64,000 bases of DNA. Origin: Prochlorococcus marinus XMU1406 (GTDB lineage: Bacteria; Cyanobacteriota; Cyanobacteriia; PCC-6307; Cyanobiaceae). This document shows, one piece after another, positions 1 through 17,452 of this stretch. Position numbers and translations under genes: made by a program. A model generated the notes under the pieces. That model ran no database searches. It was not told the origin of the DNA and saw only the letters and a list, made by a program, of their open reading frames with translations. The stretch's first letter is position 1. Each line of letters begins with the position of its first letter. Where the stretch lies: contig NZ_JAAORG010000001.1 of NCBI RefSeq assembly GCF_017696055.1, positions 124,001 to 188,000 on the forward strand, in the 5' to 3' direction.

Positions 1-575
1 AAACGTGCGCAACCAGTAATTGTTCCTCCTGTGCCTACTCCCGTAACTAATCCATCTAAATTGGAATTGGATTGGGCCCATATTTCTTGAGCCGTTGTTT
101 TTTCATGAATATCTGGATTAGCAAAGTTTTCAAATTGATTAAATTGATAGCTATTTGCAATGCTTGAAGACAACTCATTAGCTAAATCTAAAGCTCCTTT
201 CATTCCTTCTCTCCCAGGTGTTAGCTGTAATTCAGCTCCATATGCTCTCAACATTGCCCTTCTTTCAATACTCATAGTATCCGGCATAGTTAATATCAAT
301 TTATAGCCTTTTGCTGCAGCAACCATTGCTAATGCGATCCCAGTATTTCCACTTGTTGCTTCAATTAACGTTGTTTTATCCGGTGTAATCAATCCTTCTT
401 CTTCAGCTTTACATAACATTGAATAAGCGATGCGATCTTTAACGGACGCTGATGGATTGAAACTTTCTAGTTTTGCTATTATTTCAGGATAACAATTAAA
501 ATACTTTCTGATTCGATTTAATTTAACTAACGGGGTATTTCCAACTAGAGAAGTAATATCATTTGCGATTTCCAT
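1..575 (-). CDS. cysK: Cysteine synthase (O-acetylserine sulfhydrylase), 3' end missing
   Basis: Makes cysteine from O-acetylserine and sulfide with pyridoxal phosphate, in the cytoplasm. The gene runs off the left edge, so only the first 191 residues are visible. Seen: an N-terminal VGNTPLVKL motif, the PLP lysine in SVKDR (about residue 46), the substrate loop TSGNTG (about 74-79), and the start of the glycine-rich phosphate loop GVGTGGT near residue 180. The ATG at 573-575 is the only good start upstream of the conserved block. It is divergent from the UPF0367 gene. Family assignment is certain; cysK versus cysM is decided only by resemblance to the plant/cyanobacterial CysK type. Confidence 0.95.
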
Positions 576-729
576 GGAATGATTTTTTAAATTGCAAAAT
601 TAAATCTCCTTTTTCCATAATAATTGTATTTAAAGATCTTTTATATAATTTTCTCAAAAGAATTTAATTTATAATAACTTTTTTTGTAAAAATATTTATA
701 ATTATGAAAAGTTGTATTTTATAAAGATT

Positions 730-1002
730 ATGTTTTCGCTGGAACTAAGTATGAAATATTCACCTTTTCCACTTTCAATTCAGAAGAAAGAATTTGATGA
801 TGTTAAACGAATTTATGATGAAATAAAAAATTCTATGAATGAAACTTTAGAATCCACAAACTTGATTGAACTAAGGTGTGACAAAGTACAAAATAAATTA
901 ATTGCTGTCAGAGCTAAAGAAATCATTTCTGTTCAGATATATGAAAAATCATCTGTCGCAGGAGGAGCTAAAAGACCAGGATTTTCTCTCAACATAGATT
1001 GA
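730..1002 (+). CDS. UPF0367 family conserved cyanobacterial protein
   Basis: A 90-residue protein of unknown function that I recognise as the cyanobacterial UPF0367 family by its N-terminal hydrophobic strand, the central ELRCDKVQNKLIAVRAKEI region and the family-ending GGAKRPGFSLNID. No membrane segment or signal peptide. An open frame extends up to a TTG at 712, but the ATG at 730 fits the family's usual N-terminus (MFSLEL...). It ends within the first codons of the downstream ABC ATPase frame, so the two are probably co-transcribed. The function cannot be told from sequence. Confidence 0.8.
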   Translation: MFSLELSMKYSPFPLSIQKKEFDDVKRIYDEIKNSMNETLESTNLIELRCDKVQNKLIAVRAKEIISVQIYEKSSVAGGAKRPGFSLNID

Positions 1003-1010
1003 TAGAATTA

Positions 1011-1685
1011 ATGCCAGATGTTCTTGAAAATGAAATACCTCATATTTATTTCAAAGATGTCACTTTTTCATATCCTGGGAAAAAAGAAAATTTAATTCTT
1101 AAATGTAATTTCTCTATAGAAAAACCTGGATTTTGGATGGTAGTCGGTAAAAACGGGAGTGGAAAAAGTACCCTTTTAAAATTAATTAATGGAATAATTA
1201 ACCCCATCAATGGAGTCATACAATCTAATGCAAATATAGGGATGGTATTTCAAAACCCTGATCATCAAATATTGATGCCAAATTGCAGGAGCGAACTTCT
1301 CATCAATATTAACCAAAATATAAGTGATTATGAAATTAATAAAAAAATTGAATATGTTCTTGCTCAGGTGGGATTGAATGGTTTTGAAAAAAGGCCAGTT
1401 CACACCTTAAGCGGTGGTCAAAAACAACGCTTAAGTATTGCTTGCGTTCTTATTAGTAATAGTAATTTTATTCTTCTAGATGAGCCTACAGCGTTACTTG
1501 ATCAAACCAGCCAATTAAGAGTTTTAAAAACTGTTAAAGATCTTACAAGTGACCATAAGAGACCTTTATCCGCTTTATGGATTACTCATCGTTATGAAGA
1601 ATTAACTTACGCTGATTCAGTAGCAGAACTGAAAAATGGTTTTTTATCTAGCTGGCAAGAACCATCAAAATTTCAATATAATTAG
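1011..1685 (+). CDS. ABC transporter ATP-binding protein (EcfA/CbiO-like)
   Basis: Nucleotide-binding subunit of an ABC transporter, 224 residues. Seen: Walker A GKNGSGKST (about 46-54), Q-loop VFQNPDHQI (79-87), signature LSGGQ (133-137), Walker B ILLDEP (154-159) and the switch histidine in ITHR (about 190). The FQNPDHQ Q-loop and the overall order resemble energy-coupling-factor / cobalt-type ATPases (EcfA/CbiO). No permease or binding protein lies next to it, so the substrate is unknown. An in-frame TTG at 999 would overlap the UPF0367 gene by 4 nt; the ATG at 1011 was chosen as the stronger start codon, but either is possible. Confidence 0.85.
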   Translation: MPDVLENEIPHIYFKDVTFSYPGKKENLILKCNFSIEKPGFWMVVGKNGSGKSTLLKLINGIINPINGVIQSNANIGMVFQNPDHQILMPNCRSELLININQNISDYEINKKIEYVLAQVGLNGFEKRPVHTLSGGQKQRLSIACVLISNSNFILLDEPTALLDQTSQLRVLKTVKDLTSDHKRPLSALWITHRYEELTYADSVAELKNGFLSSWQEPSKFQYN

Positions 1686-1734
1686 ATATTTTACTTGTCA
1701 TAAGGCACTTTAAAGAGTTAAATTCATTTTATAT

Positions 1735-1806
<72 letters not shown>

Positions 1807-1831
1807 TTTTAAAGTCAAGAAAAGTCATGCT

Positions 1832-1857
1832 AAGTCACCTATTCGGTGACTTTTTTT
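1832..1857 (+). terminator. Rho-independent terminator after tRNA-Asn
   Basis: An 8-bp stem AAGTCACC / GGTGACTT with a TATTC-like loop is followed by a run of seven T (1851-1857, the first two shared with the stem). It sits 26 nt past the tRNA and would end its transcript. Confidence 0.85.
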
Positions 1858-1890
1858 GCCTATAACTACCTTCTCAGTGAAAAATGTCTA

Positions 1891-1969
1891 GACGAATAAT
1901 GACACTATAGTGCAATTTTATTCGTCCAGTATTCGTCTTTTTATTCGTCTTTTAGTAAAAATATTCGTC
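1891..1969. repeat. ATTCGTC short-repeat cluster, left end of mini-element
   Basis: ATTCGTC occurs at 1920-1926, 1931-1937, 1943-1949 and 1963-1969 on the plus strand and inverted (GACGAAT) at 1891-1897. Start-to-start steps of the direct copies are 11, 12 and 20, close to one or two helical turns. Two copies continue as ATTCGTCCAG. A perfect 10-bp palindrome CACTATAGTG (1903-1912) lies between the inverted and direct copies. The pattern suggests cooperative binding of a protein to one face of DNA, for example a recombinase arm domain or directionality factor. Which protein binds is unknown. Confidence 0.6.
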
Positions 1970-2012
1970 CAGATTTTTAGTCACTTTTACTGCTATTTTC
2001 ACGTTTTTATCC

Positions 2013-2195
2013 TCAGTCGCAATAAATTAAACAATTCTGATTAGTCGGATGTTTTCTACATTCCTTATCCCAAAAGTTTTGAAACTCAGGATTACATTTT
2101 TCTAGTTCTTGTGGAGTCTCATTCAAGTTTAACCCTGCATAATTAAATGCAGTTAGGTATCTTGGAAGGACATTGAATTGATTGAATAGTTTCAT
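2013..2195 (-). CDS. Small protein with CP12-like C-terminal tail
   Basis: Sixty residues, no membrane segment. Not recognised as a named family over its full length, but the C-terminus has Cys46, Pro50, Cys55, Tyr58 and Asp60. That spacing (C-x3-P-x4-C-x2-Y-x-D) equals the GAPDH-binding tail of CP12, which in Prochlorococcus reads roughly CDANPDAPECLVYDD. The N-terminal CP12 helices are missing. The start is supported by a perfect AGGAGG four bases upstream of the ATG (minus strand, 2200-2205), rare for random ORFs here. It lies inside the putative mini-element and may be its cargo. A role in sequestering a Calvin-cycle enzyme is a guess from the tail alone. Confidence 0.6.
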   Translation of the reverse strand: MKLFNQFNVLPRYLTAFNYAGLNLNETPQELEKCNPEFQNFWDKECRKHPTNQNCLIYCD

Positions 2196-2199
2196 AAGA

Positions 2200-2205
2200 C
2201 CTCCT
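2200..2205 (-). promoter_or_regulatory. Strong Shine-Dalgarno for the CP12-tail ORF
   Basis: AGGAGG followed by the four-base spacer TCTT and then the ATG. Most neighbouring core genes lack such a perfect site, so it argues the short ORF is truly translated. A second AGGAGG lies about 25 nt further upstream. Confidence 0.6.
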
Positions 2206-2356
2206 AGATCTATATCTATATTGTCCTCCTATTAACTTGAAATTCATAGAGTATTATTACCCGAGTAGAAGTGCTTTGAGGTATCATCAAGAATTTCCAT
2301 AAAAAATAAACTATCATTTATAAAATTAATTAAAAGAAAATAATCCTTGATATTTA

Positions 2357-2674
2357 ATGTTGAGACTTCTTCCTCTACCAATTTTTATTTGCATTTATCT
2401 ATTTTCTTGGTGGAGATGTAAAAAAAATATTATCGCTAGTGATAAGCAACTAAAACCATGCATTGATTGGGCATATGTAAAAAATTTACCTCTCCCACCA
2501 AAACCTTCATTTATCGAGTTTTATATTGTTTATGTTTCTTCTTTTTTTAAATTCCCCTTTGGGATAATTGTTCAACAACTACCTTTCTCAAAGAAAGTAA
2601 GATATTACGAAAGAGAAATGAAATTAATATTTGATAAATGGAATTTAGAAAAAATTAAAAAAATAAAAAACTAA
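2357..2674 (+). CDS. Hypothetical protein with N-terminal membrane segment
   Basis: An ORF of 105 residues inside the mini-element. Residues 1-18 form a hydrophobic stretch (LRLLPLPIFICIYLF), a second hydrophobic stretch lies near 52-75, and the C-terminus is Lys-rich. No family recognised. There is no clear ribosome binding site, and base composition does not distinguish it from spacer DNA, so it could be a chance ORF or a fragment. It ends 3 nt before the right-hand ATTCGTC repeats. Confidence 0.4.
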   Translation: MLRLLPLPIFICIYLFSWWRCKKNIIASDKQLKPCIDWAYVKNLPLPPKPSFIEFYIVYVSSFFKFPFGIIVQQLPFSKKVRYYEREMKLIFDKWNLEKIKKIKN

Positions 2675-2677
2675 TTT

Positions 2678-2696
2678 ATTCGTCAAAATATTCGTC
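2678..2696 (+). repeat. ATTCGTC repeats, right end of mini-element
   Basis: Two copies of ATTCGTC at 2678-2684 and 2690-2696, 12 bp apart, in the same orientation as the main left-end group. A perfect palindrome TGTCATGACA (2720-2729) lies between these and the direct repeat at 2769. Matching repeats at both ends of a bounded segment are what makes the segment look like one element. Confidence 0.6.
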
Positions 2697-2768
2697 CATT
2701 TTCTAATTTCTCTCTTATATGTCATGACAAATCGCGTAATATCAAGACTTATTTTGTTAAACTCACTA

Positions 2769-2779
2769 CCGCCCGGGGA
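2769..2779 (+). repeat. Direct repeat, copy 2: putative att core remnant
   Basis: CCGCCCGGGGA, identical to tRNA-Asn positions 1795-1805. The surrounding bases do not form a tRNA, so it is the displaced end of the attachment site. A 12-bp perfect palindrome GTCTTATAAGAC follows at 2791-2802. Confidence 0.7.
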
Positions 2780-2804
2780 ATTCAATATAAGTCTTATAAG
2801 ACAG

Positions 2805-2830
2805 AAAAAGACCCAGTAAGGGTCTTTTTT
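2805..2830 (+). terminator. Rho-independent terminator
   Basis: Stem AAAAAGACCC / GGGTCTTTTT with loop AGTAA, ending in a T run. No gene is directly upstream on the plus strand except the ORF ending at 2674. It may be the terminator that belonged to the tRNA before the mini-element inserted. Confidence 0.7.
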
Positions 2831-3078
2831 AGTGTTTTTTTATTAAAAAATTTCTATTTTTGAAAATGGTGGGGAAATGGTGGCGAAGTAATTTATAAAT
2901 GGTGGGAATATGGCAGTGAAATTTACCTCTTTCTTCGATTTTCTAGGTTTACTTGAAATAAGGGGAGTAAGGCAATAGCAACTAAAAGTTCGCATTAGGA
3001 GAGCGATTTTAAAAAATTAACTATCACTAGAAAATTCTAAGGTTAATTCATCGAATCGAAAAATACACATCAAAAATA
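2831..3078. repeat. Gene-free stretch with phased AATGGTGG repeats
   Basis: AATGGTGG occurs at 2865-2872, 2876-2883 and 2898-2905, with steps of 11 and 22 bp, so all three sit on one face of the helix. Translation in one frame gives a short Trp/Gly-rich string that soon hits stops, so I do not call it coding. The rest, to 3078, shows no gene. The repeats may be arm-type or regulator sites of a second, older element. Confidence 0.45.
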
Positions 3079-4728
3079 CTATTCATCTAATAGTTTCTTA
3101 TATTTCTTATTTTTTATAATTATTTTTATTGCAGGATTTAGCATCTTTTTGTAATTTTTCCATCCCTTTTTTGACCTTGAGTTAATTGGGGAACGCACTT
3201 CTACACTGCTAGCAGTCAGAACGGATCTTTCGCTTAAATGATGTGATAAATATGATTTGTTCCACTTCCAACCTAACCAATTGATTAGAGATTCTACTTC
3301 TTTGGTAGGGTTTTCTACCAACAAATCATAGTTTAAATCGTATATTTTACTCCTGAATTCCTTCTTATAATTATCCATTATCTCCTCTTGGTTATTGTAA
3401 ATCAATGCACAATCAATGATTGAAGATGAATAATTAATTCCAGATTTAAAATTTGCTCTAAACATGGATAAAATATTATCTAGAGGATTGCGGAAACAAT
3501 GTATGATTTTTGCATTTGGAATTTCATTTGCAATTATTCCAGCATATTTGTAATTTCCTAAATTTTTATTTGTAGTAATAATGTTTATATACCCCAACCC
3601 ATTAAGCTTTTTTAAATAAATCTCATTTAATGGCAACCCTTCAATATTTTTTTTGTAATTTTTAAATGATTCTTCAAGAATATTAACCTCTCCTAATGGA
3701 GTAACTTTAGGATTCATACTCAAGATATTCTCTATTAGAGTTGAACCACTTCTTGGCATACCCACAATAAAAATACATTCAGGGGATTTTGCTGAAGATT
3801 TTCTATTTATTTTTTTTTTGTTGCACTCTAATAATAGTTTTTTTGATTTTTTATAAAGAATCTCTCTATTTGAGGGTTGAATTTTTAGTTTCAATTCATT
3901 TGCTGAAATGAGAAATTTAGAACTTTCTTCATAGTTTTTTTCTTTGTGACATATATTTGCTCTAGCGAAATAAATATCCACTAAATCACTTCTTGATTGA
4001 TTTTTTAAAATATCTTTCGAGAATAGATATTTTTTCCAATTATTGTCATCAGAATAATTCAGGGATGAAAGAGAAAAATATGCTTTTGCATAATCCGGCT
4101 TGATTTCAATCGCTTTGAGAAAAGATATTTCTGCTTCTTTTAATTTTCCAAGATTGGTAAATACTATGCCAAGACTATATTGTGCATTATAAAAATCTGG
4201 TTTTATTTCAATCGCTTTGAGAAAAGATATTTTTGAATCTTCTAACTTCCCAAGTTTGTTTAGTATAATCCCTAGATTGTAGTGAGCAGGAGCAAAATCG
4301 TTTTTTAGATTTATCGCTTTTCTTGTTGATATTTCTGCTTCTTTTAATTTCCCAAGTTCTTTGAGAATCCCACCTAAATTTGCATGGGTTTCAAATGAAT
4401 TAGGATTTAATACGATTGTTTTACGAGCAAATATTTCTGCTTTTGAAAATTTTTGAAGTTTTAGCAAAATATTAATAATGTAAAAGTAAGCATTCAAAAA
4501 ATCTGGTTTGATTTCTATAGTTTTGAGAAAACATTTTTCTGCTTGGACTAATTGACCTCCGTTAAATAGAATTAATCCATAATTAAAGTAAAGAAAAGGG
4601 TTAATAAAACCAATTTTTATAAGAGATTGATAAATTTTTGATGCTTCTGAAATATTACCCTTCTTTTGAAAATTGATTGCTTTAATAAATATTTCTTTGT
4701 TGGTGTGCACTATTTTCTTATCAATCAT
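3079..4728 (-). CDS. TPR-repeat sulfotransferase
   Basis: A 549-residue protein. Residues about 10-275 are tandem 34-residue tetratricopeptide repeats, including near-identical FLKAIEIKPDF/Y units. From about 315 on is a sulfotransferase domain with the PAPS phosphate loop GMPRSGST (323-330) and the second phosphate-binding stretch FRNPLDNILSMFR. Such fusions, common in marine picocyanobacterial islands, would transfer sulfate from PAPS to an unknown acceptor (glycan, lipid or peptide). The TPR DNA shows recent internal duplication: 102 bp apart, 4103 and 4205 start almost the same 27 bases. It lies in the accessory region and is probably acquired. Acceptor unknown. Confidence 0.85.
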   Translation of the reverse strand: MIDKKIVHTNKEIFIKAINFQKKGNISEASKIYQSLIKIGFINPFLYFNYGLILFNGGQLVQAEKCFLKTIEIKPDFLNAYFYIINILLKLQKFSKAEIFARKTIVLNPNSFETHANLGGILKELGKLKEAEISTRKAINLKNDFAPAHYNLGIILNKLGKLEDSKISFLKAIEIKPDFYNAQYSLGIVFTNLGKLKEAEISFLKAIEIKPDYAKAYFSLSSLNYSDDNNWKKYLFSKDILKNQSRSDLVDIYFARANICHKEKNYEESSKFLISANELKLKIQPSNREILYKKSKKLLLECNKKKINRKSSAKSPECIFIVGMPRSGSTLIENILSMNPKVTPLGEVNILEESFKNYKKNIEGLPLNEIYLKKLNGLGYINIITTNKNLGNYKYAGIIANEIPNAKIIHCFRNPLDNILSMFRANFKSGINYSSSIIDCALIYNNQEEIMDNYKKEFRSKIYDLNYDLLVENPTKEVESLINWLGWKWNKSYLSHHLSERSVLTASSVEVRSPINSRSKKGWKNYKKMLNPAIKIIIKNKKYKKLLDE

Positions 4729-4773
4729 ATTTACTGCACAAAAATTGTATTTCTAATTTATCAGAAAAATTTA

Positions 4774-4947
4774 CTAATTATTCCTTTGATTCTCTATCCA
4801 TTTATCAATTTAATACTTCATAAAAACCATTCTTCTGGGTGATATTTTAACTTTTGGAGGAAATTTTCCTCTTTTGATTAGGCGATTAATTGTTGATACT
4901 GAAATTCAAAGAAGTTATGATAGTTCTTTTACTATTAATCTAGTTAT
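4774..4947 (-). pseudogene. Decayed AlpA-family (MerR-like/excisionase-type) regulator
   Basis: Reading the minus strand in one unbroken frame gives a 57-residue winged-helix protein of AlpA type with VKELS, ISVSTINRLIKRG, KFPPKVKISPRR and IDKWIENQRNN, interrupted by exactly three stop codons: TAA (4915-4917), TGA (4906-4908) and TAA (4810-4812). Each stands where the family has Gln, Gly and Glu (LSqLLgIS and KYeIDKW), one substitution away from CAA, GGA and GAA. The start is ATA, perhaps a mutated ATG. There is no frameshift. AlpA proteins control excision or expression of integrated elements, so this is a remnant of a mobile element. Found by reading; it is too broken to appear as an ORF. 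Confidence 0.75.
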
Positions 4948-5148
4948 TTTATAACAAATTACTAAATAAGGGTTATTTGTTGAAAATTAGTTTTCATAGA
5001 TATTTGTATTCTAATATCTGTTGTAGAAATATTGTTCTTGGCTGTATTTTTTCTTTTAAAATCTATAAATTCTTTAATTGATTTTTAAGTTTTATCTAGT
5101 CAAGGTAAAACTTTTTTGTATTGTATAAATTATACATATTAGGAAATT

Positions 5149-5508
5149 CTAATCAGCCCACATATCCGTTTTCTCTTGATCTGAGTTATTTCTCTTAAGT
5201 AATTCTATTCTTTGTTTCTGAGAATCTATTTCTGTTTCAAGAACTTTTTTCTCGTCAATGTATTTTGCTTGTATTTCTAGGATAACTATCTCAAATTGCT
5301 CTCCAAAAAAATCTGATATTTCACTCCAAGCTTCTATTTCTTCTTCTTTGTCGATAGTATCGTTTATCTGATGAGAAATAATTTCTAGTACATATTGTTT
5401 AAGATCTTGATGACTCATCGATTCAACTTTTTTTTGAATATATAATTCTTTAAGTTTTTCTAGTTGTTTTTTTGATAAATCAGAATAGATAATTGACTTC
5501 TTTTTCAT
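5149..5508 (-). CDS. Hypothetical coiled-coil-like protein
   Basis: A 119-residue acidic protein with no family I recognise. It is rich in Lys, Glu and Ile. Residues 10-60 contain MSHQDLKQYVLEIISHQI, similar in style to small island proteins of Prochlorococcus, and residues 75-110 look like a helix or coiled coil. No signal peptide or membrane segment and no clear Shine-Dalgarno. It sits at the far end of the accessory stretch. Probably a real gene from its length in this frame, but function unknown. Confidence 0.6.
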   Translation of the reverse strand: MKKKSIIYSDLSKKQLEKLKELYIQKKVESMSHQDLKQYVLEIISHQINDTIDKEEEIEAWSEISDFFGEQFEIVILEIQAKYIDEKKVLETEIDSQKQRIELLKRNNSDQEKTDMWAD

Positions 5509-5912
5509 AGATATTTAAATTTTTTTTAATATAGACAAAATTATTACTATAACCACTCAGAATAAATTAAAAATTTAAATTCAGTTAAATCCTCTTTGAA
5601 AACTGAGAATCACTATTTAATTTTATTTTCAGATACCTTTGCCTATGGCAATTTGAATTCGATATTTTTTCAAAAAAAATCAATATCTTTTCTAATTTTC
5701 CTTTGATTGTTAAGAAAAAGTAAATAGAATCGAAAGAAATTGTAAAATTTAAACTTTTTTAAAAATTTGCAATTTCTCTCTAATACCTTGTCATCATTAA
5801 GTTAATTCATAAATTGAATTGATAAAAATGTTTACACTAATCCAGCAATCTTAATAAATTCTTGAGAGAATCTTATTACTAAAACTTTATTTTAATTTAA
5901 TAGTCAATCAAT
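5509..5912. other. Long AT-rich intergenic region upstream of rpaA
   Basis: About 400 bp without an ORF, unusual in this compact genome. It separates the hypothetical gene at 5508 (minus) from rpaA (plus) and so must hold both promoters. I see no tRNA, terminator-like hairpin or repeat. It may be the island edge or an rpaA leader. Confidence 0.5.
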
Positions 5913-6695
5913 ATGAAAATTTCAATCCTCTTGATAGAAGATGATCGTGATATGCGTGATTTAGTGGCTAGGCATTTAGAACATTCTGGTTTCGATGTAC
6001 AAAAAGCTGAAGATGGCATTAAAGGGCAGGCGTTAGCTCTTCAATACTCACCAGATTTAATACTTTTAGATTTGATGCTGCCAAGTGTTGACGGGTTAAC
6101 TTTATGCCAGCGACTTAGAAGAGATGAAAGAACATCAAATATTCCAATTCTAATGATAACTGCTTTAGGTGGCCTTAAAGATAAAGTGACTGGATTTAAT
6201 TCTGGAGCAGATGATTACATCACTAAACCATTCGATCTAGAAGAATTACATGTTCGCATAAAAGCATTACTAAGAAGAACCAATAGAGCACAATTGAATT
6301 CTAGTAACCAGCAAGAAATATTGAATTATGGACCTTTAACTCTTGTTCCGGAAAGATTTGAAGCTATATGGTTTAAATCTCCTGTTAGATTAACGCATCT
6401 TGAATTTGAATTGCTTCACTGTCTTTTGCAGAGACATGGTCAAACTGTATCGCCAGCATTAATTCTTAAAGAAGTTTGGGGATATGAACCTGACGATGAT
6501 ATTGAGACAATAAGAGTTCATATTAGGCACTTACGCACTAAATTAGAACCTGATCCACGTAAGCCTACATATATAAAAACTGTTTATGGTGCCGGATATT
6601 GTCTTGAGTTACCTATTGGTTCTCAAGTTGAAACTGCTAGGCAAGAGTTTATTCAAGCAAGAAATCCTGATTTAATAAATTCTGTACTAGATTAA
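5913..6695 (+). CDS. rpaA: Response regulator RpaA (OmpR class)
   Basis: Two-component transcription factor that in other cyanobacteria is the output regulator of the Kai clock through SasA and also affects phycobilisome/photosystem energy coupling. Seen: receiver domain with acidic pair Glu9-Asp10-Asp11, phospho-acceptor Asp53 (LLLDLMLP) and Lys105 (TKPF); winged-helix domain about 135-240 with the RpaA-specific [26 protein letters not shown] and [15 protein letters not shown] blocks. Length 260 is normal. The near-identity of the winged helix to freshwater RpaA makes this assignment firm. Its stop overlaps the convergent holB stop. Confidence 0.93.
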
Positions 6696-7660
6696 TCCAA
6701 TATATCTTCCATTGAAATTTTTAATAAAGTAATTTCCCAAGCCAACCTTGGTTGAATGTTTTTTCTTAAAAGATATTTTAAATTTTCAAGTTTTTTAACT
6801 AAACTAATATTTTTTGTCTTTCTCCACCAAATAGTTTGAATATAATTGGCTAAGCAAATCTGTTGATATATTTCTAATGTTTCAGATATTAATTTAGATC
6901 TTTCTAGAATTTCCAAACTATTTTTCATTGGAGAATCCAATTTACTTATAATTTCATCTGAAAAATCATTCAAAATTTCAATATTTTTTAATAATTTATT
7001 TGGGGATCCATTTGCAGAATTTATTAAATCATCCAATTTTAATTTTTTGTTAATATTTAATTTAGAAGTATCTAAATAATCTTTCAAAATAGACTTTATT
7101 TGTTTACTAGAAAAGGATCGAAATCTGACAATTTGACATCTTGAGATGATCGTATCTAAGAGAAGGTTTAATTTAGATGTTAATAAAATAAAAATGCCAT
7201 TACTAGGTTCTTCTAAGGTTTTTAAAAGGCAATTTGAGGCTGCTTCATTTAAAAGGTGTGCATCAATAATTAAAACAATTTTTTTTTCTGAGTTTATTGA
7301 TTTCTGACCAAGAAAAGTTTTGATATTACGTATTTGAGCAATCTTAATAATCTCAGATCCACTTTTTATTTTTTTTTCAAGATCGGAACTACTTGAACTT
7401 TTTGTGGCTAAAAGTGAATCAGGTTCGATAATTAGTAAATCAGGATGGTTATTGTTGGTAATTTTCTCTTCAATATTCTCTGAAGGTGTTAATTGTTTGA
7501 AAATCTCTTTTATAAATCGAAAAGCAGTTTGCTTTTTCCCCACTCCTTCAGCACCATAAAATATATAACCATTAGCAAATGATTTGTTTTTAATTATGCT
7601 GTTAAGGCAGATATTGACTTCTTCATCAAATAAAAAATTATTTTTTTTAACCTCAATCAT
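6692..7660 (-). CDS. holB: DNA polymerase III delta' subunit
   Basis: Clamp-loader subunit of the replicative polymerase. Seen: P-loop-like GAEGVGKK (36-43), the LLKTLEEPS block and the SRCQ sensor-1 motif of the clamp-loader AAA+ family. The Cys4 zinc module of E. coli delta' is not visible and only a Ser-rich insert lies in that area, as is usual for short cyanobacterial versions. Length 322. It overlaps the downstream-in-sequence tmk gene's end by 4 nt (ATG within the tmk stop), the common tmk-holB operon. Confidence 0.88.
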
Positions 7661-8295
7661 TTGTTATTAGAAAAATTCTTTAGTATGGTTTGTCTAATTT
7701 GATTAGAAATAGTTTCAACATTTTGTGAGGCAGATATCACTTCCCATTGTTTTTCTTTGGCAATTAGTTTGAATCCTTCATTTACTTTTTCTAGAAATCT
7801 AATACCTTCTGATTCCATTCTATCTGGGATTTCATGTTTTCTTCGGAATATACTCTCTTCTGGAGAAATTTCTAAGAAGAAAGTTAGATCAGGAGACTTT
7901 CCTTGACACACAATAGATTCAATATTTTTAATTATTTCTAAATTTATATTTCTTCCATAACCTTGATAAGCCAGTGTGGAATCAGAAAATCTATCACTTA
8001 TTACCCAATCATTCTTATTTAAAGCAGGTGAAATAATTTTTGAAACGTGTTCCGCTCTATCAGCTGAATAAAGCAATAATTCCGCGAGCGATGAGGGTTT
8101 GTTATTTGCATTATTATCAAGAATCAGTCCTCTAAGTTTTTTTCCTAATAGGCTGCCTCCAGGCTCTCTAGTTGTGATTAATTTAGACCCTTTCTTTATT
8201 AGACCACTATTAGGTAGCCATTTAGATAGTTCATCTATTTGGGTAGTCTTACCACATCCATCAATACCCTCAATAACGATAAATTTTCCTTTCAT
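7657..8295 (-). CDS. tmk: Thymidylate kinase
   Basis: Phosphorylates dTMP to dTDP. Seen: P-loop [10 protein letters not shown] (9-18), the DR motif in [16 protein letters not shown] (about 97-112) that binds the dTMP phosphate, TREPGG (about 43-48) and a lid with [12 protein letters not shown]. Length 212 is typical. Its ATG is directly adjacent to the P-type ATPase stop and its stop overlaps the holB start, so the three genes probably form one transcript. Confidence 0.95.
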
Positions 8296-10599
8296 TTAAT
8301 CCAAAGATAAAGCATTAATTACAACTGTAATAGAGCTAATAGCCATCAATAATGCTGCAATTGAGGGAGTGAGAAGAATACCGTATTTAGGGAATAAAAA
8401 GCCCGCGGCTAAAGGTATAGCGAGTAAGTTGTAACCAAAAGCCCATGTTAGATTTTGCTTTATTTTTCTTATAGTTTTTTTTGCAAGATTTAAGGCGTAG
8501 GGTAATCCATTGAGTTGATCTCCCATCAATACTACATCTGCATTTGCCTTGGCTATTTGAGTCCCCGATCCCACTGCAATTCCTAAGTCTGAGGATGCTA
8601 AGGCTGGGACATCATTAATACCATCACCAATCATTGCTACTTTATTATTAATTTTTAAATTTTCTATAGTCTTTAGCTTCATTTCAGGAAGAAGATCCCA
8701 TTTTACTTCTGTTTCTTTACAACCAATTTTTTTTGCTAAAGCTAAAACTGTTTGTTTCCTATCTCCACTTAAAATATTAATTTTAAATTTGTTTTCTCTC
8801 AAATTTTGAACTGTTTTAATTGAATCATCTCTGAGTAAATCTCCTAGCAAAATAAAGCCTAATAACTTATCTTTGATACTTACTCCAATGATAGTGTTCG
8901 TTTTTGTTTCTTCATTTTCGATTACTTTTTTTGCATCACTATCAATAATTATTCCTTTGCTTAGTAGCCATTCAATATTTCCAATATTAATAAGTCCATC
9001 AATTGACTCAAGTTCTCCAGAAATACCTCGACCTGAATGTGTGAAAATTTTTTTTATTGGAAATAAAATTAAATTTTGCTTTTTTGCCTCTTGAATTAAA
9101 GCATCCGCAATTGGATGTCTGCTTTCCTTTTCTAAACTGGCAGCTATTCTTAATAAAAATGAATTGTCATCATTATTTTTATAATTAACAATAAAAGGCT
9201 TACCTTTTGTTAAAGTACCTGTCTTGTCAAAAATAATGTGATTAATTTTTGAAGCCATCTCTATTTTGTCCCCACCTTTAAATAAAACCCCTTTTTTTGC
9301 TGCTTTACCTGATGCGACAGTGATTACAGTTGGAGTGGCTAAACCTAATGCACAAGGACAAGCTATTACTAAAACAGCAATTGACAATTGAATTGCTAAA
9401 CTCAGGTAATTTTCAGCATTACTACCAAGCGAACTATGCAGTGTATGGCTTGAGTGAGCAATGAATTCATGTTTATGACTTAATAAATCAGGCCATATGC
9501 TTCTTGCCCCCTTCCACCAAAAGAAGAAAGTTAATGTAGAAAAAATAAGTACAAAGTAAGTAAATTTGCCTGCAATTTCATCAGCAATTCTTTGAATGCG
9601 AGGTTTTCTAGAGTTTACAGACTCAATAAGATTTACTAGTTTTGCAAGAGAAGAATCTCCTCCGACTTTTTGTACTTTAAGTCTAAGAGTTGAATTAAGA
9701 TTTAAAGACCCGCTAGATAGATTCTCGCCTTCTTTTACTTCGATAGGTTTGGATTCTCCAGTAATATGTGAAACATCAACATATGAGTTGCCTCTGGTAA
9801 CAATGCAGTCAGCAGGTATTCTGTCTCCTGCTAAAACTTGAATCTCTTGATCAGGTCTTAAAGTGTTTACTCTTATTGACTTTATTTGATTGTCTTCTGT
9901 GTAGATATTTGCCATTTCAGGTTGAAGATCTAATAATTCTCCAATGGATGAACCAGTTTGATGTCTTGCTCTTTCTTCTAAGAAACGCCCAATCAGTATG
10001 AAGCCTAAAAGCATAACTGGTTCATTAAAAAAACAAGGAAAACCAGTGGCTGGAAATATTAAGGATAGAAGACTTGTTGCATATGCGCTTATTACTCCAA
10101 GAGCGACTAAAGAATCCATATCCGGATGGTTCTTAATAAATGATTTAAATCCATTAATAATTATTCCTCTGCCAGGAAATAATAGAGCTAAAGTTGCTAA
10201 TGAAGCATGAAAAAATATATTCCCTAATATTGGAAAATTTATATATCTTCCTTCTGCTAGATGACCTAAACCTGAAAATAATAAAAGTAATAGGGCAAAA
10301 GTTAGTTTTTTCCATTGATTATTCCACTTCTTTTTTTTTTTTAATTCTGCTTTATTTATTTTTTTTGAAAAATCATTTATGTAAATCTTTGATGGGAAAC
10401 CATTTTCTTTTAGATTTTCGAGAACTGTTTCTATTTCTATATGTTTCTTGGTAATTTCAAAATATGCACTTTCAGTAAGCAAGTTAACAGAAACATTTTC
10501 AATACCCTCAGAATTATTCAATATTTTTTCAACAGTACTAACACAACCGCCGCATTTCATTCCTGTGACGTTTAATTGAATGCTCTCCATATTTTTCAC
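8296..10599 (-). CDS. Copper-type P1B ATPase
   Basis: Membrane pump for Cu+ (or a similar soft metal), 767 residues. Seen: one N-terminal metal-binding domain with GMKCGGC (13-19), TGES actuator loop (280-283), transmembrane CPC (414-416), phosphorylation DKTGT (Asp458), the SRHP motif (about 492) and the hinge [10 protein letters not shown]. About eight membrane segments. A His-rich loop (about 375-390) lies between two segments just before CPC. Cyanobacteria use two such pumps, one importing copper across the plasma membrane (CtaA) and one into the thylakoid (PacS); sequence alone does not decide. It is divergent from ycf3. Confidence 0.9.
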
Positions 10600-10710
10600 G
10601 ATAAAAGCATATTAATGCTTAACTTTATTTTAACTATAATAATAAATGTAATAGACTTTTTAAATAGTTATTTTTTAAATTACTATATTAATTTTATTAA
10701 ATTTAGAGCA

Positions 10711-11232
10711 GTGCCTAGTAATCAAAACAGAGACAATTTTATTGATAAAGCTTTTACTGTAATTGCTGAATCTATTGTAAAAATAATGCCTATCGCTGAG
10801 AAAGAAAAAAAGGCATATATTTATTATAGAGATGGCTTAGCTGCACAAAATAATGGGGATTATTCGGAAGCATTAGAGTATTACAAAGAGAGTTTACTTC
10901 TTGAAGAAAATAAAATTGATAGGGGTGAGACTCTAAAAAACATGGCAATTATATATATGAGTAACGGTGAAGAGGATTTATCTATTGAAACTTATGAAAA
11001 AGCATTACTAGAAAATCCCAAACAGCCATCATGCTTAAAAAATATCGGTTTAATTTATGAAAAAAGGGGAAGATATGCTGAGCAAAATGGTGATTTAGAT
11101 CAGAGAGATATTTGGTTTGATAAAGCTGCTGAAGTCTGGTCTAAAGCGGTGAGACTATATCCAGGTGGGTATCTAGATATTGAGAATTGGTTGAAAAACT
11201 CGGGCAGAAGCTCAATTGATATGTACCTTTGA
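10711..11232 (+). CDS. ycf3: Photosystem I assembly protein Ycf3
   Basis: TPR protein needed for photosystem I assembly, acting at the thylakoid surface. Seen: three tetratricopeptide repeats between about 35 and 150, and the family's start [14 protein letters not shown] and end [13 protein letters not shown]. Length 173 is normal. The open frame reaches back to 10576 into the ATPase start, but that segment is AT-rich and unlike Ycf3; the GTG at 10711 gives exactly the family's N-terminus (M-PSNQN). Confidence 0.93.
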
Positions 11233-11236
11233 TTTT

Positions 11237-12589
11237 TTATTTTGAAAAAGAATAATCAACTGCTTCTTTAATATTGGATATCTCTTTGATATTTATTAAA
11301 TTTTGAAAATTATTATTTAGTTCCTCCTCTAGTTTTGGGACTATGATATTCTTGATACCTAATCTTACTGCTTCTTCAATCTTTGTTCGAAGGTTATTCG
11401 ATTTTCTAACTTGACCGCTCAAACCCAATTCCCCAATAAATGAGGTACTAGCTAAAGCAGGAATATTTTTCAAGCTTGATAAAATTGATATTGCTACACC
11501 TAAGTCAGATGAGGGATCATTAATCTCAAAACCTCCACCAGTAGCAATATAACAATCAAATTCAGATAATTTTATCCCCACGTGTTTTTCAATAACAGCA
11601 AGAATTTGATGCAACCTATTTATGCTAATTCCAGTTGTAGTTCGTCTTGGATTACTGTAGAAAGTTTTATTTACCAGTGCTTGTATATCAACTGCTAATG
11701 GTCGAGTGCCTTCATTTGTAATCGTAGTTGTTACACCTGAAATATTTTCTTTATTTGTAAAAATTGAACTTGGGTTTTTTATCTCTCTTAAACCTTCTTC
11801 AAGCATTTCAAAAATTCCAATTTCAAAGGTCGATCCAAATCGATTTTTTATACTTCTTAGTAATCTATGAGATGAAATATTATCTCCTTCAAAGTTTATT
11901 ACTGTATCAACTAAATGCTCAAGAGTTTTAGGGCCAGCTAACGCACCATCCTTGGTTACATGACCAATTATTAGAAGCGCAATATTATTGTCTTTGGCTA
12001 GATTTTGCAACTCAGACGAACATGCTCTAACTTGAGAAACCGATCCTGGCGAACTTTCCATTTCATGATTGTGGATGGCTTGAATACTATCAATAATTGC
12101 GAAACTTGGATTTACACTTTTGATCTCTTCAATAATTAGGGATAAATTTGTTTCTGCAAAAATTTTTAAATCAATACTGTTTTGATTTAATCTTTCCCAT
12201 CTAATTTTTACTTGTTCTAGGGATTCTTCTGCAGTTATGTATAAAACTTTCTCATTTAGAGATATTTTTCCTGCTGATTGAAGAACTATTGTGCTTTTAC
12301 CTATACCTGGTTCTCCTCCAAGTAAGACAACAGATCCAGGTACTATTCCACCTCCAAGAACTCGATCAAATTCTCTAAAACCACTTGTAAATCTTGATAT
12401 TTTTTTTGATGAAATTTCATTAAAAGAGATAGATTTCTTATTATTTTTAATATTTTGATGTCTAGATCTCTTGCTTTTAATTTCTTCTACAATCGAATTC
12501 CATGAGTTGCAGTTAAGGCATTTCCCAAAGTATTGAGAAGTTTCAGTTCCGCAATTTTGACAAATAAAAGTCGATAATTTGCTAGACAT
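11237..12589 (-). CDS. radA: DNA repair protein RadA (Sms)
   Basis: RecA-like helicase for branch migration in recombinational repair. Seen: zinc finger Cys10, Cys13, Cys24, Cys27; Walker A GGEPGIGKST (91-100); the RadA motif KNRFG; and a C-terminal Lon-protease-like domain with ATGGGFEINDPSSDLG. Length 450 is normal. Convergent with ycf3, 4 nt between the stops. Confidence 0.96.
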   Translation of the reverse strand: MSSKLSTFICQNCGTETSQYFGKCLNCNSWNSIVEEIKSKRSRHQNIKNNKKSISFNEISSKKISRFTSGFREFDRVLGGGIVPGSVVLLGGEPGIGKSTIVLQSAGKISLNEKVLYITAEESLEQVKIRWERLNQNSIDLKIFAETNLSLIIEEIKSVNPSFAIIDSIQAIHNHEMESSPGSVSQVRACSSELQNLAKDNNIALLIIGHVTKDGALAGPKTLEHLVDTVINFEGDNISSHRLLRSIKNRFGSTFEIGIFEMLEEGLREIKNPSSIFTNKENISGVTTTITNEGTRPLAVDIQALVNKTFYSNPRRTTTGISINRLHQILAVIEKHVGIKLSEFDCYIATGGGFEINDPSSDLGVAISILSSLKNIPALASTSFIGELGLSGQVRKSNNLRTKIEEAVRLGIKNIIVPKLEEELNNNFQNLINIKEISNIKEAVDYSFSK

Positions 12590-12696
12590 TTAGTTTTTGA
12601 ATAAAGTATTAGAACTAGAATGTTTGGGATATTGCCCCTCTACAAGTTAGATTAGGATAATAATTAATTCTCTTACTGATTAGCTAATAGAAACAA

Positions 12697-13443
12697 ATGG
12701 CTCTATCTAGTCAAACTAAAGAAACAATTCTTGTCGCAGATGACGAGGCAAGTATTAGAAGAATTCTGGAGACGCGCCTCTCCATGATTGGCTACAAAGT
12801 CGTAACTGCAAGTGATGGTAAAGAAGCACTAAAGTTATTTAAAGATTATGACCCTGATTTAGTCGTGCTTGACGTTATGATGCCAAAATTAGATGGCTAT
12901 GGAGTGTGTCAAGAATTAAGGAAAGATTCTGATGTTCCAATTGTTATGTTAACTGCATTAGGAGATGTTGCAGATAGGATAACAGGTTTAGAATTAGGGG
13001 CTGATGATTACGTCGTAAAACCATTTAGCCCAAAGGAGTTAGAAGCTAGGATTAGGTGTGTTCTGAGAAGAATCGATAAAGAACAAATCCCTGGAATGCC
13101 TAATTCAGGATTGATTTTGGTTACAGATATAAAAATTGATACAAATCGAAGACAAGTTTTTAAAAGTGATGAGAGAATTAGGTTAACTGGAATGGAATTT
13201 AGTCTTTTAGAGCTTTTGGTAAGTAGGTCAGGAGAGCCATTTAGTAGAGGAGAGATTTTGAAAGAAGTTTGGGGATATACACCTGAGAGACACGTTGATA
13301 CAAGAGTAGTGGATGTTCATATATCAAGATTAAGATCAAAACTGGAGGCTGATCCCGCAAATCCTGAATTGATATTAACAGCGAGGGGCACAGGATATCT
13401 TTTTCAAAGGATTGTAGATATTGCTCCTTTTGATGGTAAATAA
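12697..13443 (+). CDS. rpaB: Response regulator RpaB (Ycf27, OmpR class)
   Basis: Essential light-stress response regulator that binds HLR1 sites and usually pairs with NblS. Seen: receiver Asp59 (VLDVMMPK), Lys108 (VKPF), winged-helix domain about 135-240 with TGMEFSLLELLVSRSGEPFS and VVDVHISRLRSKLEADP. Length 248 is typical. It ends immediately before plsX with no gap, so regulator and lipid genes may be co-transcribed. No HLR1-like site could be assigned with confidence upstream. Confidence 0.93.
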   Translation: MALSSQTKETILVADDEASIRRILETRLSMIGYKVVTASDGKEALKLFKDYDPDLVVLDVMMPKLDGYGVCQELRKDSDVPIVMLTALGDVADRITGLELGADDYVVKPFSPKELEARIRCVLRRIDKEQIPGMPNSGLILVTDIKIDTNRRQVFKSDERIRLTGMEFSLLELLVSRSGEPFSRGEILKEVWGYTPERHVDTRVVDVHISRLRSKLEADPANPELILTARGTGYLFQRIVDIAPFDGK

Positions 13444-14850
13444 ATGGGCAAAGAAAGTGTGCAAAAAATTAATAAGCCCAGAGCTATCAGAAGATTAGTT
13501 ATTTGGTACAAAAGAAACTCTGCTGTAACTTCAATAGTAGATACTGCTGCTAGTTCTGCGGTGACGGCTAGTAATGTTGCGGGTAATGTAGTTTCTGGTG
13601 CTGGTTCTGTTGTGAGCACAGCTAGTAATGTGGCGAGTAATGTTGCAGGTAATGTAGTTTCAAGCGCTGAATCTGTTGTGAATACTGCCAGCAGTGTTGT
13701 TTCAAATGCTAGTTCAATAGCTAAAAATACATTACAGCCATTAGTTTTTGACCCATTAAAAAGATTACAAAATAATGATAATATTTTAGATAGGGTAGAG
13801 GAATCTCAATCTAAAAGAATTTGGATCGCAGTTGATGGTATGGGTGGAGATTATGCTCCTGGTCCAATTCTTGAGGGTTGCCTCGAAGCAATAAGTAGAT
13901 TTCCAATAAATATAAAGTTTGTCGGTAAAATTGAAAAAGTTAAAGATGCAGCAGAAAAAACTGGTTTAGCAGAAATATTAGGAAATGAAATTGATAATAA
14001 TCGTCTTGAATTAATTGATAGTGGAGAGCCTATTGGGATGAATGAAGAAGCTACTGCAGTTAGAAAAAGGAAAAATGCAAGTATAAACGTTGCGATGGAT
14101 TTAGTGAGAAATAATAAAGCTGAAGCTGTCTACTCAGCTGGTAATTCAGGAGCCATGATGGCTTCTGCCATATTTAGAATTGGAAGATTGAAAGGAATTG
14201 ATAGACCAGCTATAGGAGCATTATTTCCAACAAGGGATCAAACTCGCCCGGTATTAGTTTTAGATGTTGGTGCAAATACTGATTGTAAGCCATCTTATCT
14301 GCATCAATTTGCTCTTCTAGGTAACATTTATGCAAAAGATGTCTTACAAGTAAAAAAACCAAGAATTGGCCTTTTAAATATTGGAGAAGAAGAATGCAAA
14401 GGTAATGATTTATCCCTAAAAACATTTGAATTATTATCTTCTGAAAAAAGTTTTCATTTTGGAGGTAATTGTGAAGGGCGAGATGTATTATCAGGTAGTT
14501 TCGACGTAGTAGTCTGTGATGGATTTACTGGAAATATATTATTGAAATTTCTTGAATCTGTGGGAGGGGTTTTATTAGATATTTTGAGATCTGAGCTGCC
14601 ACGTGGAAGGCGGGGGAAAGTTGGTTCAGCTTTTTTAAAAAGTAATCTACTCAGAATTAAGAAAAGGTTAGATCATGCCGAACATGGAGGAGCTTTATTA
14701 CTTGGGGTGAATGGAATTTGCGTTATTGGTCATGGAAGTAGCAAATCTTTATCAGTAGTTAGTGCTCTTCGCTTGGCTCACTCCGCAGTGAATCATGGTG
14801 TTATGGACAATTTAAATCAACTTCAAAAGCTTCAAGTTTTAAATTCATAA
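13444..14850 (+). CDS. plsX: Phosphate acyltransferase PlsX with long N-terminal repeat extension
   Basis: Converts acyl-ACP to acyl-phosphate in phospholipid synthesis. The catalytic core starts at about residue 124 (RIWIAVDGMGGDYAPG) and runs to the end with SAGNSGAMMASAIF and DVGANTDCKP, normal in length. Before it is a 120-residue extension absent from ordinary PlsX: a short basic start, then about 68 residues (28-95) made almost only of Ala, Val, Ser, Asn, Thr and Gly in imperfect repeats of ASNVAGNVVS and SAESVVN types, then a linker. No start codon lies between extension and core, so it is one protein. The extension looks like a long amphipathic helix, as in lipid-binding proteins. Starts right after rpaB. 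Confidence 0.93.
   Translation: MGKESVQKINKPRAIRRLVIWYKRNSAVTSIVDTAASSAVTASNVAGNVVSGAGSVVSTASNVASNVAGNVVSSAESVVNTASSVVSNASSIAKNTLQPLVFDPLKRLQNNDNILDRVEESQSKRIWIAVDGMGGDYAPGPILEGCLEAISRFPINIKFVGKIEKVKDAAEKTGLAEILGNEIDNNRLELIDSGEPIGMNEEATAVRKRKNASINVAMDLVRNNKAEAVYSAGNSGAMMASAIFRIGRLKGIDRPAIGALFPTRDQTRPVLVLDVGANTDCKPSYLHQFALLGNIYAKDVLQVKKPRIGLLNIGEEECKGNDLSLKTFELLSSEKSFHFGGNCEGRDVLSGSFDVVVCDGFTGNILLKFLESVGGVLLDILRSELPRGRRGKVGSAFLKSNLLRIKKRLDHAEHGGALLLGVNGICVIGHGSSKSLSVVSALRLAHSAVNHGVMDNLNQLQKLQVLNS
13525..13730 (+). repeat. Imperfect in-frame repeats in plsX extension
   Basis: The DNA encodes repeating units such as GCTAGTAATGTTGCGGGTAA and near copies 60-66 bp further on. The repeats keep the frame and differ at third positions, so selection acts on protein. 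Likely to vary in copy number between strains. Confidence 0.6.
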
Positions 14851-14859
14851 AACATATTG

Positions 14860-14879
14860 AGTCAAATTTATGTTTGACT
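14860..14879. other. Short inverted repeat between plsX and fabH
   Basis: AGTCAAA and TTTGACT form a 7-bp stem with a 6-base loop. No T run follows, so it is not a standard terminator. It could be an RNA processing or attenuation hairpin. Confidence 0.35.
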
Positions 14880-14903
14880 AATATAAGTAACTAAAAAACT
14901 CTT

Positions 14904-15911
14904 TTGGAAGGAATAAATTTTAATCAGATTGGAGTATCATTCAAGGGGAGCGGAAGTTATGTACCTGATCAAATTCTGACTAATCAAAAAATTAGTCAAA
15001 AGGTTGATACAAGCAATGAATGGATAAAATCTAGAACGGGCATTTCTGAGAGAAGAATCTCTAACTTAGGAGATAATGTTACTGAGATGGGCTATAAGGC
15101 GGCTCTAACTGCTATAGAAACGGCTAATTGGGATATTAAAACGATTGATTTGATTGTTTTAGCTACTTCTACTCCGCATGATTTATTTGGATCAGCGCCA
15201 TCCATTCAAGCTAAATTAGGGGCAGCTAATGCTGTGGCTTTCGATTTAACTGCGGCATGTAGTGGTTTCTTATTTGCCTTAATTACAGCCTCACAATTTT
15301 TAAAAGGGGGTAGTTTTAAAAGAGCTATTGTTATAGGAGCAGATCAACTATCAAGCTTTGTTGACTGGAATGATAGAAGAAGTTGTATTCTCTTTGGAGA
15401 TGGTGCAGGTGCATTAGCAATTGAAGCCACTAATCAATATGATAATTTAATTGGTTTTGATATGAAAACTGATGGAGAAAGGGGTTCTTTTCTTAATCTC
15501 CCATCAAAAAATAATAAGGATTCAATAATTGATAATATTGATTTCTCAAGTGGAGCTTTTTCTCCAATTCAGATGAATGGGCAGGAAGTGTATAAATTTG
15601 CAGTGAGAGAAGTTCCGATAATTCTTGAAAAGTTGTTCAAAAAAATGAATTATGCTTCCGATGAAGTTGATTGGCTTGTATTGCATCAAGCTAATCAAAG
15701 GATATTGGATTCTGTAGGAGAAAGGTTAAAAATTCCTGGAGAAAAAATTCTTAGCAATTTAGAAAAATACGGTAACACTTCAGCAGCAACAATTCCACTT
15801 GTGATGGATGAGGCTATTAGAGACAATAGAATTAAACAAAATGATATTATTGCAACAAGTGGTTTTGGTGCTGGGTTAAGTTGGGGTGCAGCCCTCATTA
15901 AATGGGGTTAA
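14904..15911 (+). CDS. fabH: 3-oxoacyl-ACP synthase III
   Basis: Starts fatty acid synthesis by condensing acetyl-CoA with malonyl-ACP. Seen: catalytic Cys119 (TAACSGF), His in LHQANQRIL (about 260) and Asn in GNTSAAT (about 290). Length 335. The start is TTG at 14904, which gives the MEGINFNQIG N-terminus I recall for Prochlorococcus FabH; no ATG is available before the conserved VSFKGSGSY. Confidence 0.95.
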   Translation: MEGINFNQIGVSFKGSGSYVPDQILTNQKISQKVDTSNEWIKSRTGISERRISNLGDNVTEMGYKAALTAIETANWDIKTIDLIVLATSTPHDLFGSAPSIQAKLGAANAVAFDLTAACSGFLFALITASQFLKGGSFKRAIVIGADQLSSFVDWNDRRSCILFGDGAGALAIEATNQYDNLIGFDMKTDGERGSFLNLPSKNNKDSIIDNIDFSSGAFSPIQMNGQEVYKFAVREVPIILEKLFKKMNYASDEVDWLVLHQANQRILDSVGERLKIPGEKILSNLEKYGNTSAATIPLVMDEAIRDNRIKQNDIIATSGFGAGLSWGAALIKWG

Positions 15912-15926
15912 AAAAAAAGGAGCATT

Positions 15927-16823: not shown

Positions 16824-16828
16824 TTTGT

Positions 16829-17449: not shown

Positions 17450-17452
17450 AAT

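Follow-up and report, generated by a model that had tools for sequence, protein, structure and literature searches.

A recombinase-free cassette with repeat-bearing ends behind tRNA-Asn of Prochlorococcus is probably mobilized in trans

Few photosynthetic organisms are as abundant as Prochlorococcus, many of whose variable genes arrive through tRNA islands. The tRNA-borne tycheposons of this genus were reportedly described by Hackl et al. in Cell in 2023. Tycheposon size is given as 4–200 kb in the part of PMC10872708 consulted here. CIMEs, as described in the consulted sections of PMC5704250, are decayed ICEs or IMEs that have lost their integration and transfer genes, retain attL and attR, and are transferred together with a neighbour once accretion has placed the two in tandem. 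For the ssrA genomic islands of Dehalococcoides, the excerpt of PMC3146451 used here counts 15 islands without an integration module. Both tRNA-borne tycheposons and tandem integrase-less islands (PMC3146451; CIMEs, PMC5704250, within these excerpts) are known already. Among the titles and abstracts that our search yielded, none dealt with motif-matched arm repeats in recombinase-less tRNA cassettes; most subscription papers fell outside it, and the absence is unproven.

The window analysed here is a 64,000-nt stretch of the genome of Prochlorococcus marinus XMU1406 (G000; 1.65 Mb, three contigs). An element of 974 bases with two small genes lies 3' of its tRNA-Asn(GTT). The element is placed like a tycheposon, 3' of a tRNA gene with a copy of the tRNA 3' end at the far boundary, and it shares with tycheposons the carriage of cargo and the host genus. 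It differs from them in having no tyrosine recombinase and in its size of 0.97 kb versus 4–200 kb (PMC10872708, part consulted). From the sequence comparisons below, we consider it probable that window positions 1795–2779 are a non-autonomous integrative cassette, moved in trans by a tycheposon-type, arm-binding tyrosine recombinase. The features are as follows:

1734..1807, plus strand: tRNA-Asn(GTT), the integration target, whose 3' end is the left core
1795..1805, plus strand: left core CCGCCCGGGGA (attL side)
1834..1857, plus strand: terminator-like hairpin GTCACC..GGTGAC with a T run, inside the left end
1891..1897, minus strand: inverted arm repeat ATTCGTC
1903..1912: palindrome CACTATAGTG, with an exact copy in 2 of the 13 aligned ATTCGTC elements
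1920..1926, plus strand: left arm repeat ATTCGTC
1931..1937, plus strand: left arm repeat ATTCGTC
1943..1949, plus strand: left arm repeat ATTCGTC
1963..1969, plus strand: left arm repeat ATTCGTC
2013..2195, minus strand: cargo ORF, 60 aa, no family
2357..2674, plus strand: cargo ORF, 105 aa, no family at cut-off, found elsewhere in many Prochlorococcus genomes too
2678..2684, plus strand: right arm repeat ATTCGTC
2690..2696, plus strand: right arm repeat ATTCGTC
2697..2768, plus strand: right end conserved across 13 aligned elements whose cargo differs
2720..2729: palindrome TGTCATGACA, with an exact copy in 8 of the 13 aligned ATTCGTC elements
2769..2779, plus strand: right core CCGCCCGGGGA (attR side), also the left core of a second element

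The initial annotation had described an 11-bp copy of the tRNA-Asn 3' end bracketing about 970 bp, ATTCGTC repeats inside both ends (five left, one of them inverted, and two right), two 10-bp palindromes and no recombinase gene in between. All of these were recovered. CCGCCCGGGGA, 11 bases of the tRNA-Asn 3' end, occurs at 1795–1805 and 2769–2779; the window holds no further copy, even if one mismatch is tolerated (two copies; expectation 0.03). ATTCGTC is present 11 times in the 64-kb window versus 2.64 expected, a count reached in 0 of 100 shuffles, and seven of the 11 are the arms of the element (1891 on the minus strand, 1920, 1931, 1943, 1963, 2678 and 2690). Perfect ATTCGTC pairs, 3–20 bases apart, were found in G000 at this element only. 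Both palindromes are present at 1903–1912 and 2720–2729; CACTATAGTG is probably incidental because it is exact in only two of the 13 elements, and it was rejected as an essential site for its lack of conservation across them. At cut-off, the two main ORFs (60 and 105 aa) matched no family in Pfam, PHROG or NCBIfam; there is no tyrosine recombinase ORF in 1808–2768 and no integration or transfer gene inside the element. Both attL and attR appear to be kept as sequence, as cores and conserved ends.

Several described systems share parts of this layout. The Dehalococcoides ssrA islands are likewise tandem islands bounded by 3'-end copies, but they use a serine recombinase and a tmRNA target, and arm sites go unmentioned in the consulted portion of PMC3146451. 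Integron cassettes and CALINs are also recombinase-less gene units in arrays with the integrase elsewhere (PMC11389934, section consulted), whereas the window cassette targets a tRNA gene and ends with direct arm repeats. MITEs resemble it as small units using the enzyme of larger relatives (PMC11389934, same section); unlike them, the window cassette is site-specific at one tRNA and has no inverted repeat joining its termini. Terminal inverted repeats are absent from 1795–2779, where none of the seven inverted pairs of at least 12 nt links both termini, and the ends are a direct core copy.

Joined window flanks were queried against 266 Prochlorococcus genomes. An empty site joining both flanks, as anticipated by the initial annotation, was found in G236, which matches through the junction: tRNA-Asn is joined directly to the sequence 3' of window position 2769 (288–1808 at 89.5% and 2769–4430 at 93.2% identity), and the flanks meet on a common 14-bp core, the overlap of the two matches. 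The reverse case is G063 (L062), in which window 1–2777 aligned unbroken at 92%, identity stops at the second core, and native downstream DNA follows. This genome has the window element without the second element, whose presence abutting at 2769 the initial annotation had not reported. Its features are:

2769..4990: second element, with ATGGTGGGGAA-type arms, TPR-sulfotransferase cargo and an AlpA pseudogene
2866..2909, plus strand: left arms ATGGTGGGGAA, ATGGTGGCGAA and ATGGTGGGAAT
3079..4728, minus strand: TPR-sulfotransferase, 549 aa, cargo of the second element
4777..4938, minus strand: AlpA-type excisionase pseudogene with three in-frame stops, near the eroded right end

The second element is evidently decayed. 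In G236 it stands directly 3' of tRNA-Asn, and in L097 its left end comes after another element. Because G236 has the second element without the first and G063 the first without the second, the two appear to come and go independently behind tRNA-Asn, with breaks on the core.

The cargo has a history apart from its surroundings. At third codon positions, both cargo ORFs were 95–100% identical to those of G001, G004, G063, G144 and G057, against 69–81% for the flanking ABC, g5149 and rpaB genes (for G144, ABC lay outside the compared stretch). The 105-aa ORF of G093 reached 96% versus 48–62% for the flanks. Identities of 86–90% were obtained for this ORF in G095, G115, G201, G226, G170, G179 and G089, always above the flanking genes found. 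Near-identical cargo beside much more diverged flanking genes indicates that the cargo is laterally transferred. In the five close genomes, the arms had 80–93% DNA identity versus 95–99.6% for the cargo; arms less alike than cargo leave room for exchange inside a resident element, and some cargo may have been exchanged there through ordinary recombination.

One could go further and assume that the cargo is swapped solely by homologous recombination between conserved flanks, the tRNA on one side and the g5149/rpaB side on the other, with cores and repeats as passive bystanders. The higher similarity of cargo than of arms agrees with this, as does the fact that the flanking genes could be recognised at almost every locus with a stretch long enough to include them. 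The breaks, however, coincide with the core copy, which lies within the stretch that a whole-locus exchange would replace. Arrays in which up to four core-bounded units stand in tandem speak against it too, among them L078 and L221 with three units each, every unit having its own matched ends. We regard this explanation as very improbable and retain the cassette moved in trans. As a separate observation, the 60-aa and 105-aa ORFs also occur away from window-type elements in many Prochlorococcus genomes. Since just one of 21 such loci (2.4–3.7 kb) checked for tRNA genes has one (L016, tRNA-Asn), these genes seem to travel through other routes too.

A perfect ATTCGTC pair was present in 17 of the 266 genomes, and 15 of the 17 have it in a tRNA-Asn array; the pairs are thus not scattered genome-wide, an outcome that the initial annotation had considered. 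The other two (G135 and G089:C8) are located within or bordering protein-coding genes, and we regarded them as chance occurrences rather than a second location. Among 400 genomes across the family, Prochlorococcus included, the pair occurred outside the genus in just two, G517 and G555, in the same sequence. This pair of another genus was dismissed; it is inside a 282-aa ORF in G517, and no tRNA lies within 1.5 kb of the locus in either genome. The right-end 103 bp gave strong matches (E below 1e-20) in 18 of the 266 genomes and weak ones in three more. tRNA-Asn was within the fetched stretch in 17 of the 18, and the contig of G264 begins near the left arm. The element, confirmed at tRNA-Asn in G144, is mostly the first unit behind the tRNA and the last of the array in G144, G201 and G089.

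Both ends could be aligned in 13 ATTCGTC elements, with long conserved stretches around several cargo sets. The cargo is the 60- and 105-aa pair, the 105-aa ORF alone, a 202-aa protein with the 105-aa ORF (L112), a 64-aa ORF with the 105-aa ORF (L181), a 207-aa protein whose sequence suggests a role in cation efflux (L105), or other ORFs (L174). L092 consists of 220 bp with ATTCGTC arms and no cargo at all, and L113 has partial ends only. The 31 PF00589 matches listed for 20 genomes all fell outside ATTCGTC element stretches, and no integrase-like ORF was seen in L319–L322. As a side observation, L322 (G089, 1748–17974) holds four core-bounded units behind tRNA-Asn, the last being the ATTCGTC unit; the third, of 7.4 kb, carries genes resembling those for a nitrite transporter, a nitrite reductase and a uroporphyrinogen methyltransferase.

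The window element might also be a dead remnant, a once autonomous element (decayed CIME) that lost its integrase and became fixed, in which case strain losses would be deletions between the 11-bp cores. The partial ends at loci such as L113, the AlpA pseudogene and eroded right end of the adjoining second element, and the failure to find a helper for the ATTCGTC arm type among the 266 genomes are what one would expect of it. A single old insertion, however, does not account for near-identical cargo beside much more diverged flanks, nor for the same ends around different or no cargo in 13 elements; both point to repeated movement. Moreover, 11 bp is short for RecA-dependent deletion. We therefore rate the remnant as unlikely and keep to the mobile cassette. 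The window cassette does resemble a CIME: it has no recombinase, both att halves are kept, and it is stacked in tandem with other elements. It differs from the CIMEs in the consulted sections of PMC5704250 in its matched arms, cargo turnover and the arm-only units found here, which suggests separate units moving in trans. As to an origin by CIME-type decay, L112 shares 896 bp with a recombinase-bearing element, but G236 and G063 indicate movement as separate units.

A survey of the surroundings covered 94 tRNA-Asn loci: that of the window, 80 taken around the ABC gene nearby, and 13 others chosen for holding relatives of the element or integrases. The 80 are the best 80 of 266 and lean to near relatives. 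Thirty of them, which lack a second core and have the downstream gene within 480 bp, were counted as empty; 29 held 36 elements, and 21 were undetermined. Dropped from the locus set were repeat genomes (L170, L175, L182, L183, L186, L188, L215 and L224) and stretches with no tRNA (L176, L178, L179, L187, L217, L219 and L223). Altogether, 51 core-to-core elements were called in the 94 loci. Their types differ in the short direct repeats near the ends, spaced at 11–12 bp, for example TGTTGGGAA, GGTGGGGAA, GGTCGTGAA, TGTTCGCTA, GTGCAGGTGA, CGTTCTGG, ACTAGTC and TTCTTGTT.

The two ends of an element tend to carry the same repeat. For the 43 elements of at least 400 bp, the best left–right end match averaged 15.4 within elements versus 9.5 between them, and 0 of 10,000 permutations reached the observed mean; eight of the 51, below 400 bp, were omitted because their end windows overlap. 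The element's own right end was the best or tied-best partner in 22 of 43 cases. The score was below 10 for nine elements. By eye, seven of these have the repeat pair at the right end only, the arms of L066 differ between its two ends, and the right end of L109 is degenerate.

Recombinase genes are rare in these elements. A tblastn search with known members found an integrase in four of the 51, an integrase fragment in one, an AlpA-type excisionase only in 15 and neither in 31, leaving 47 without a complete recombinase gene. The corresponding counts for the 36 elements of the 80-locus set were two, zero, 14 and 20; this set also includes eight units of 188–257 bp without an ORF of 60 aa. A terminator-like hairpin lies 10–85 nt 3' of the core in 46 of 51 elements (61 of 1020 in shuffled sequence) and also in all 17 empty sites tested of the 30. 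Since elements and empty sites both have the hairpin, a new left end replaces a terminator and does not add one.

Direct repeats at 11–12 bp spacing also fit iterons or operators. The repeats could then be regulator or replication sites of the cargo or of the excised circle instead of integrase arms, and we see little chance of this being so. Most elements have the same motif near both ends at a similar core distance, and other types have another motif. Repeats are present even in arm-only units that have no gene to regulate. Nor is the AlpA protein a convincing reader: the AlpA proteins of L043, L077 and L099 are 71–81% identical to that of L090, although the arm motifs differ. AlpA as the reader of the arms is thus thought unlikely, and the integrase is the more likely candidate.

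Two further observations concern the same loci. L221, from the single-contig genome G050, has three tandem units at tRNA-Asn with different arms each: an integrase unit with GGTCGGGAA arms, then units of 623 bp and 1.5 kb without an integrase. Between tRNA-Asn and the downstream gene, AGAACAGTA was found in 25 of the 30 empty sites, with two copies 77–93 bp apart in 13 (L054, for example, at relative positions 190 and 268). This motif is similar to arm repeats (AAGAACAGTAnnTAGAACA) and perhaps marks either a regulatory site or the end of a very ancient element.

The L081 integrase as a query found relatives in 22 of 266 genomes. Seven tRNA-Asn elements have an integrase gene with arms adjoining it:

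L215 (=L081): integrase-bearing, arms ACTAGTC
L224 (=L068): integrase-bearing, arms CGTTCTGG
L217 and L223: integrase-bearing, arms TGTTGGGAA
L219 and L221: integrase-bearing, arms GGTCGGGAA
L220: integrase-bearing, arms GGTGGGGAA

The window cassette and these recombinase-bearing elements have their end architecture in common at the same tRNA-Asn, a further likeness to tycheposons, and the initially proposed relation to tRNA-targeting elements is supported. From their tRNA target, genus and recombinase, rather than from published sequences, we infer that the integrase-bearing relatives are the published tycheposons. The tRNA-Asn of L223 (G035) is 14.6 kb before the core. L217 and L219 presumably target tRNA-Asn, because a core copy adjoins their arms in stretches without a tRNA. 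The integrase tree placed L217 and L223, which have the same arms, as sisters (99/99), and five integrases with ATGnTsGGGAA-type arms formed one clade (100/100); L219 and L221, both with GGTCGGGAA, were not sisters.

Right arms of 18 of the 47 elements without a complete integrase matched one of the seven at a score of at least 14, which 0 of 940 shuffled ends reached; the other 29 matched none. Seven of the 18 are ATTCGTC elements, matching ACTAGTC (L081/L215), the nearest arms among integrase-bearing elements, with exactly the threshold score of 14. L112 aligns with the ACTAGTC integrase element over 896 bp from the tRNA on at 89%. Its left arms are ATTCGTC-type (one ATTCGTA) at four of five positions and ACTAGTC at the fifth, the pattern of an ATTCGTC/ACTAGTC chimera. 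Because L112 aligns with the ACTAGTC element while its arms are swapped, an L081-like recombinase would be the likeliest helper for ATTCGTC. The initial annotation had suggested looking for ATTCGTC arrays next to recombinase genes; none was found in the 266 genomes or IMG/VR, and no recombinase gene with ATTCGTC arms turned up there. Its idea of an attachment site with arm-type sites and the enzyme supplied from elsewhere is supported, with the enzyme for the ATTCGTC arms a presumed one. The whole genome G000 has no match to the L081 recombinase; the window cassette may therefore be stranded in it.

Arm-binding domains are essential for the mobility function of mobile-element recombinases, according to the consulted part of PMC8138268. 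The recombinases found here have no sequence relative among solved structures. A related recombinase was modelled with moderate quality (pTM 0.46); the model shows strands and a helix N-terminal to the core domains, and its best PDB matches are the lambda and Tn1549 integrases (TM-scores about 0.3).

These results can be combined into a mechanism. The two ends would be halves of one attachment site, each with a core and ATTCGTC arm repeats at fixed distances inside. A tyrosine recombinase with an N-terminal arm-binding domain, provided by another tycheposon-type element, would bind arms and cores in trans, excise the cassette as a circle, and re-insert it at the 3' end of tRNA-Asn, in the cell it came from or in a different one. 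The tRNA would be restored by the left end, which would also supply a terminator, the cargo between the arms would be exchangeable, and the arm repeats would serve as an address for the helper. That an integrase binds the repeats, that movement occurs in trans and what kind of helper acts are what we infer.

A broader reading is somewhat less likely to be right than wrong in our estimate. Prochlorococcus tRNA genes would then hold integron-like arrays of recombinase-free cassettes, whose end repeats are an address naming the arm-binding recombinase that moves them; a change of arm repeats, as in L112, would be a change of helper with core and cargo kept. The gene-less, arm-only units of about 190–260 bp would be the smallest such cassettes, and many addresses would exist at tRNA-Asn alone. 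If this address reading is true, much small-gene traffic through tRNA sites is invisible to integrase-based annotation. If integrase-free cassettes with a readable end code are common, gene flow could be traced and cassettes paired with helpers from the sequence alone. The natural series of arm motifs with related integrases should also be useful for learning how arm-binding domains read DNA.

No phage link was found. Window positions 1808–2790 gave no blastn match in 50,697 phage records, the two ORFs have no PHROG family, and the right-arm ATTCGTC pair had no match in IMG/VR. A looser pattern matched 25 IMG/VR contigs, which were taken as chance because ATTCGTC occurs just once near the core in each of them. 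With the L081 recombinase as sole query, IMG/VR yielded no relative; the recombinase alignment found five distant integrases, 23–26% identical. The 20 plasmid matches listed, of 535, cover the tRNA part only. Of the term satellite, used initially for this element, the non-autonomous sense stands; a tie to phage particles was found neither in the phage records nor in IMG/VR.

Twelve integrase loci at tRNA-Ser genes were also scanned for end repeats. By eye, nine of them (L218, L222, L228 and L230–L235) share a motif between the pairs before the far core and after the tRNA. L237 has a shared motif too, in another layout, and L227 and L236 are without it. The AGGGGAT motif of the integrase-bearing L233 recurs in three integrase-free units at tRNA-Ser(GCT), two in L227 and one in L228, as pairs in two units and as single copies at each end of the third. 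These units come from two genomes and L233 from a third, and the same pattern thus recurs beyond tRNA-Asn. As a minor observation, the window genome has a tyrosine recombinase match at G000:C2:8644-9159 (L239; open frame of 198 aa), about 2 kb from tRNA-Pro, and G004 has one about 3 kb from tRNA-Pro.
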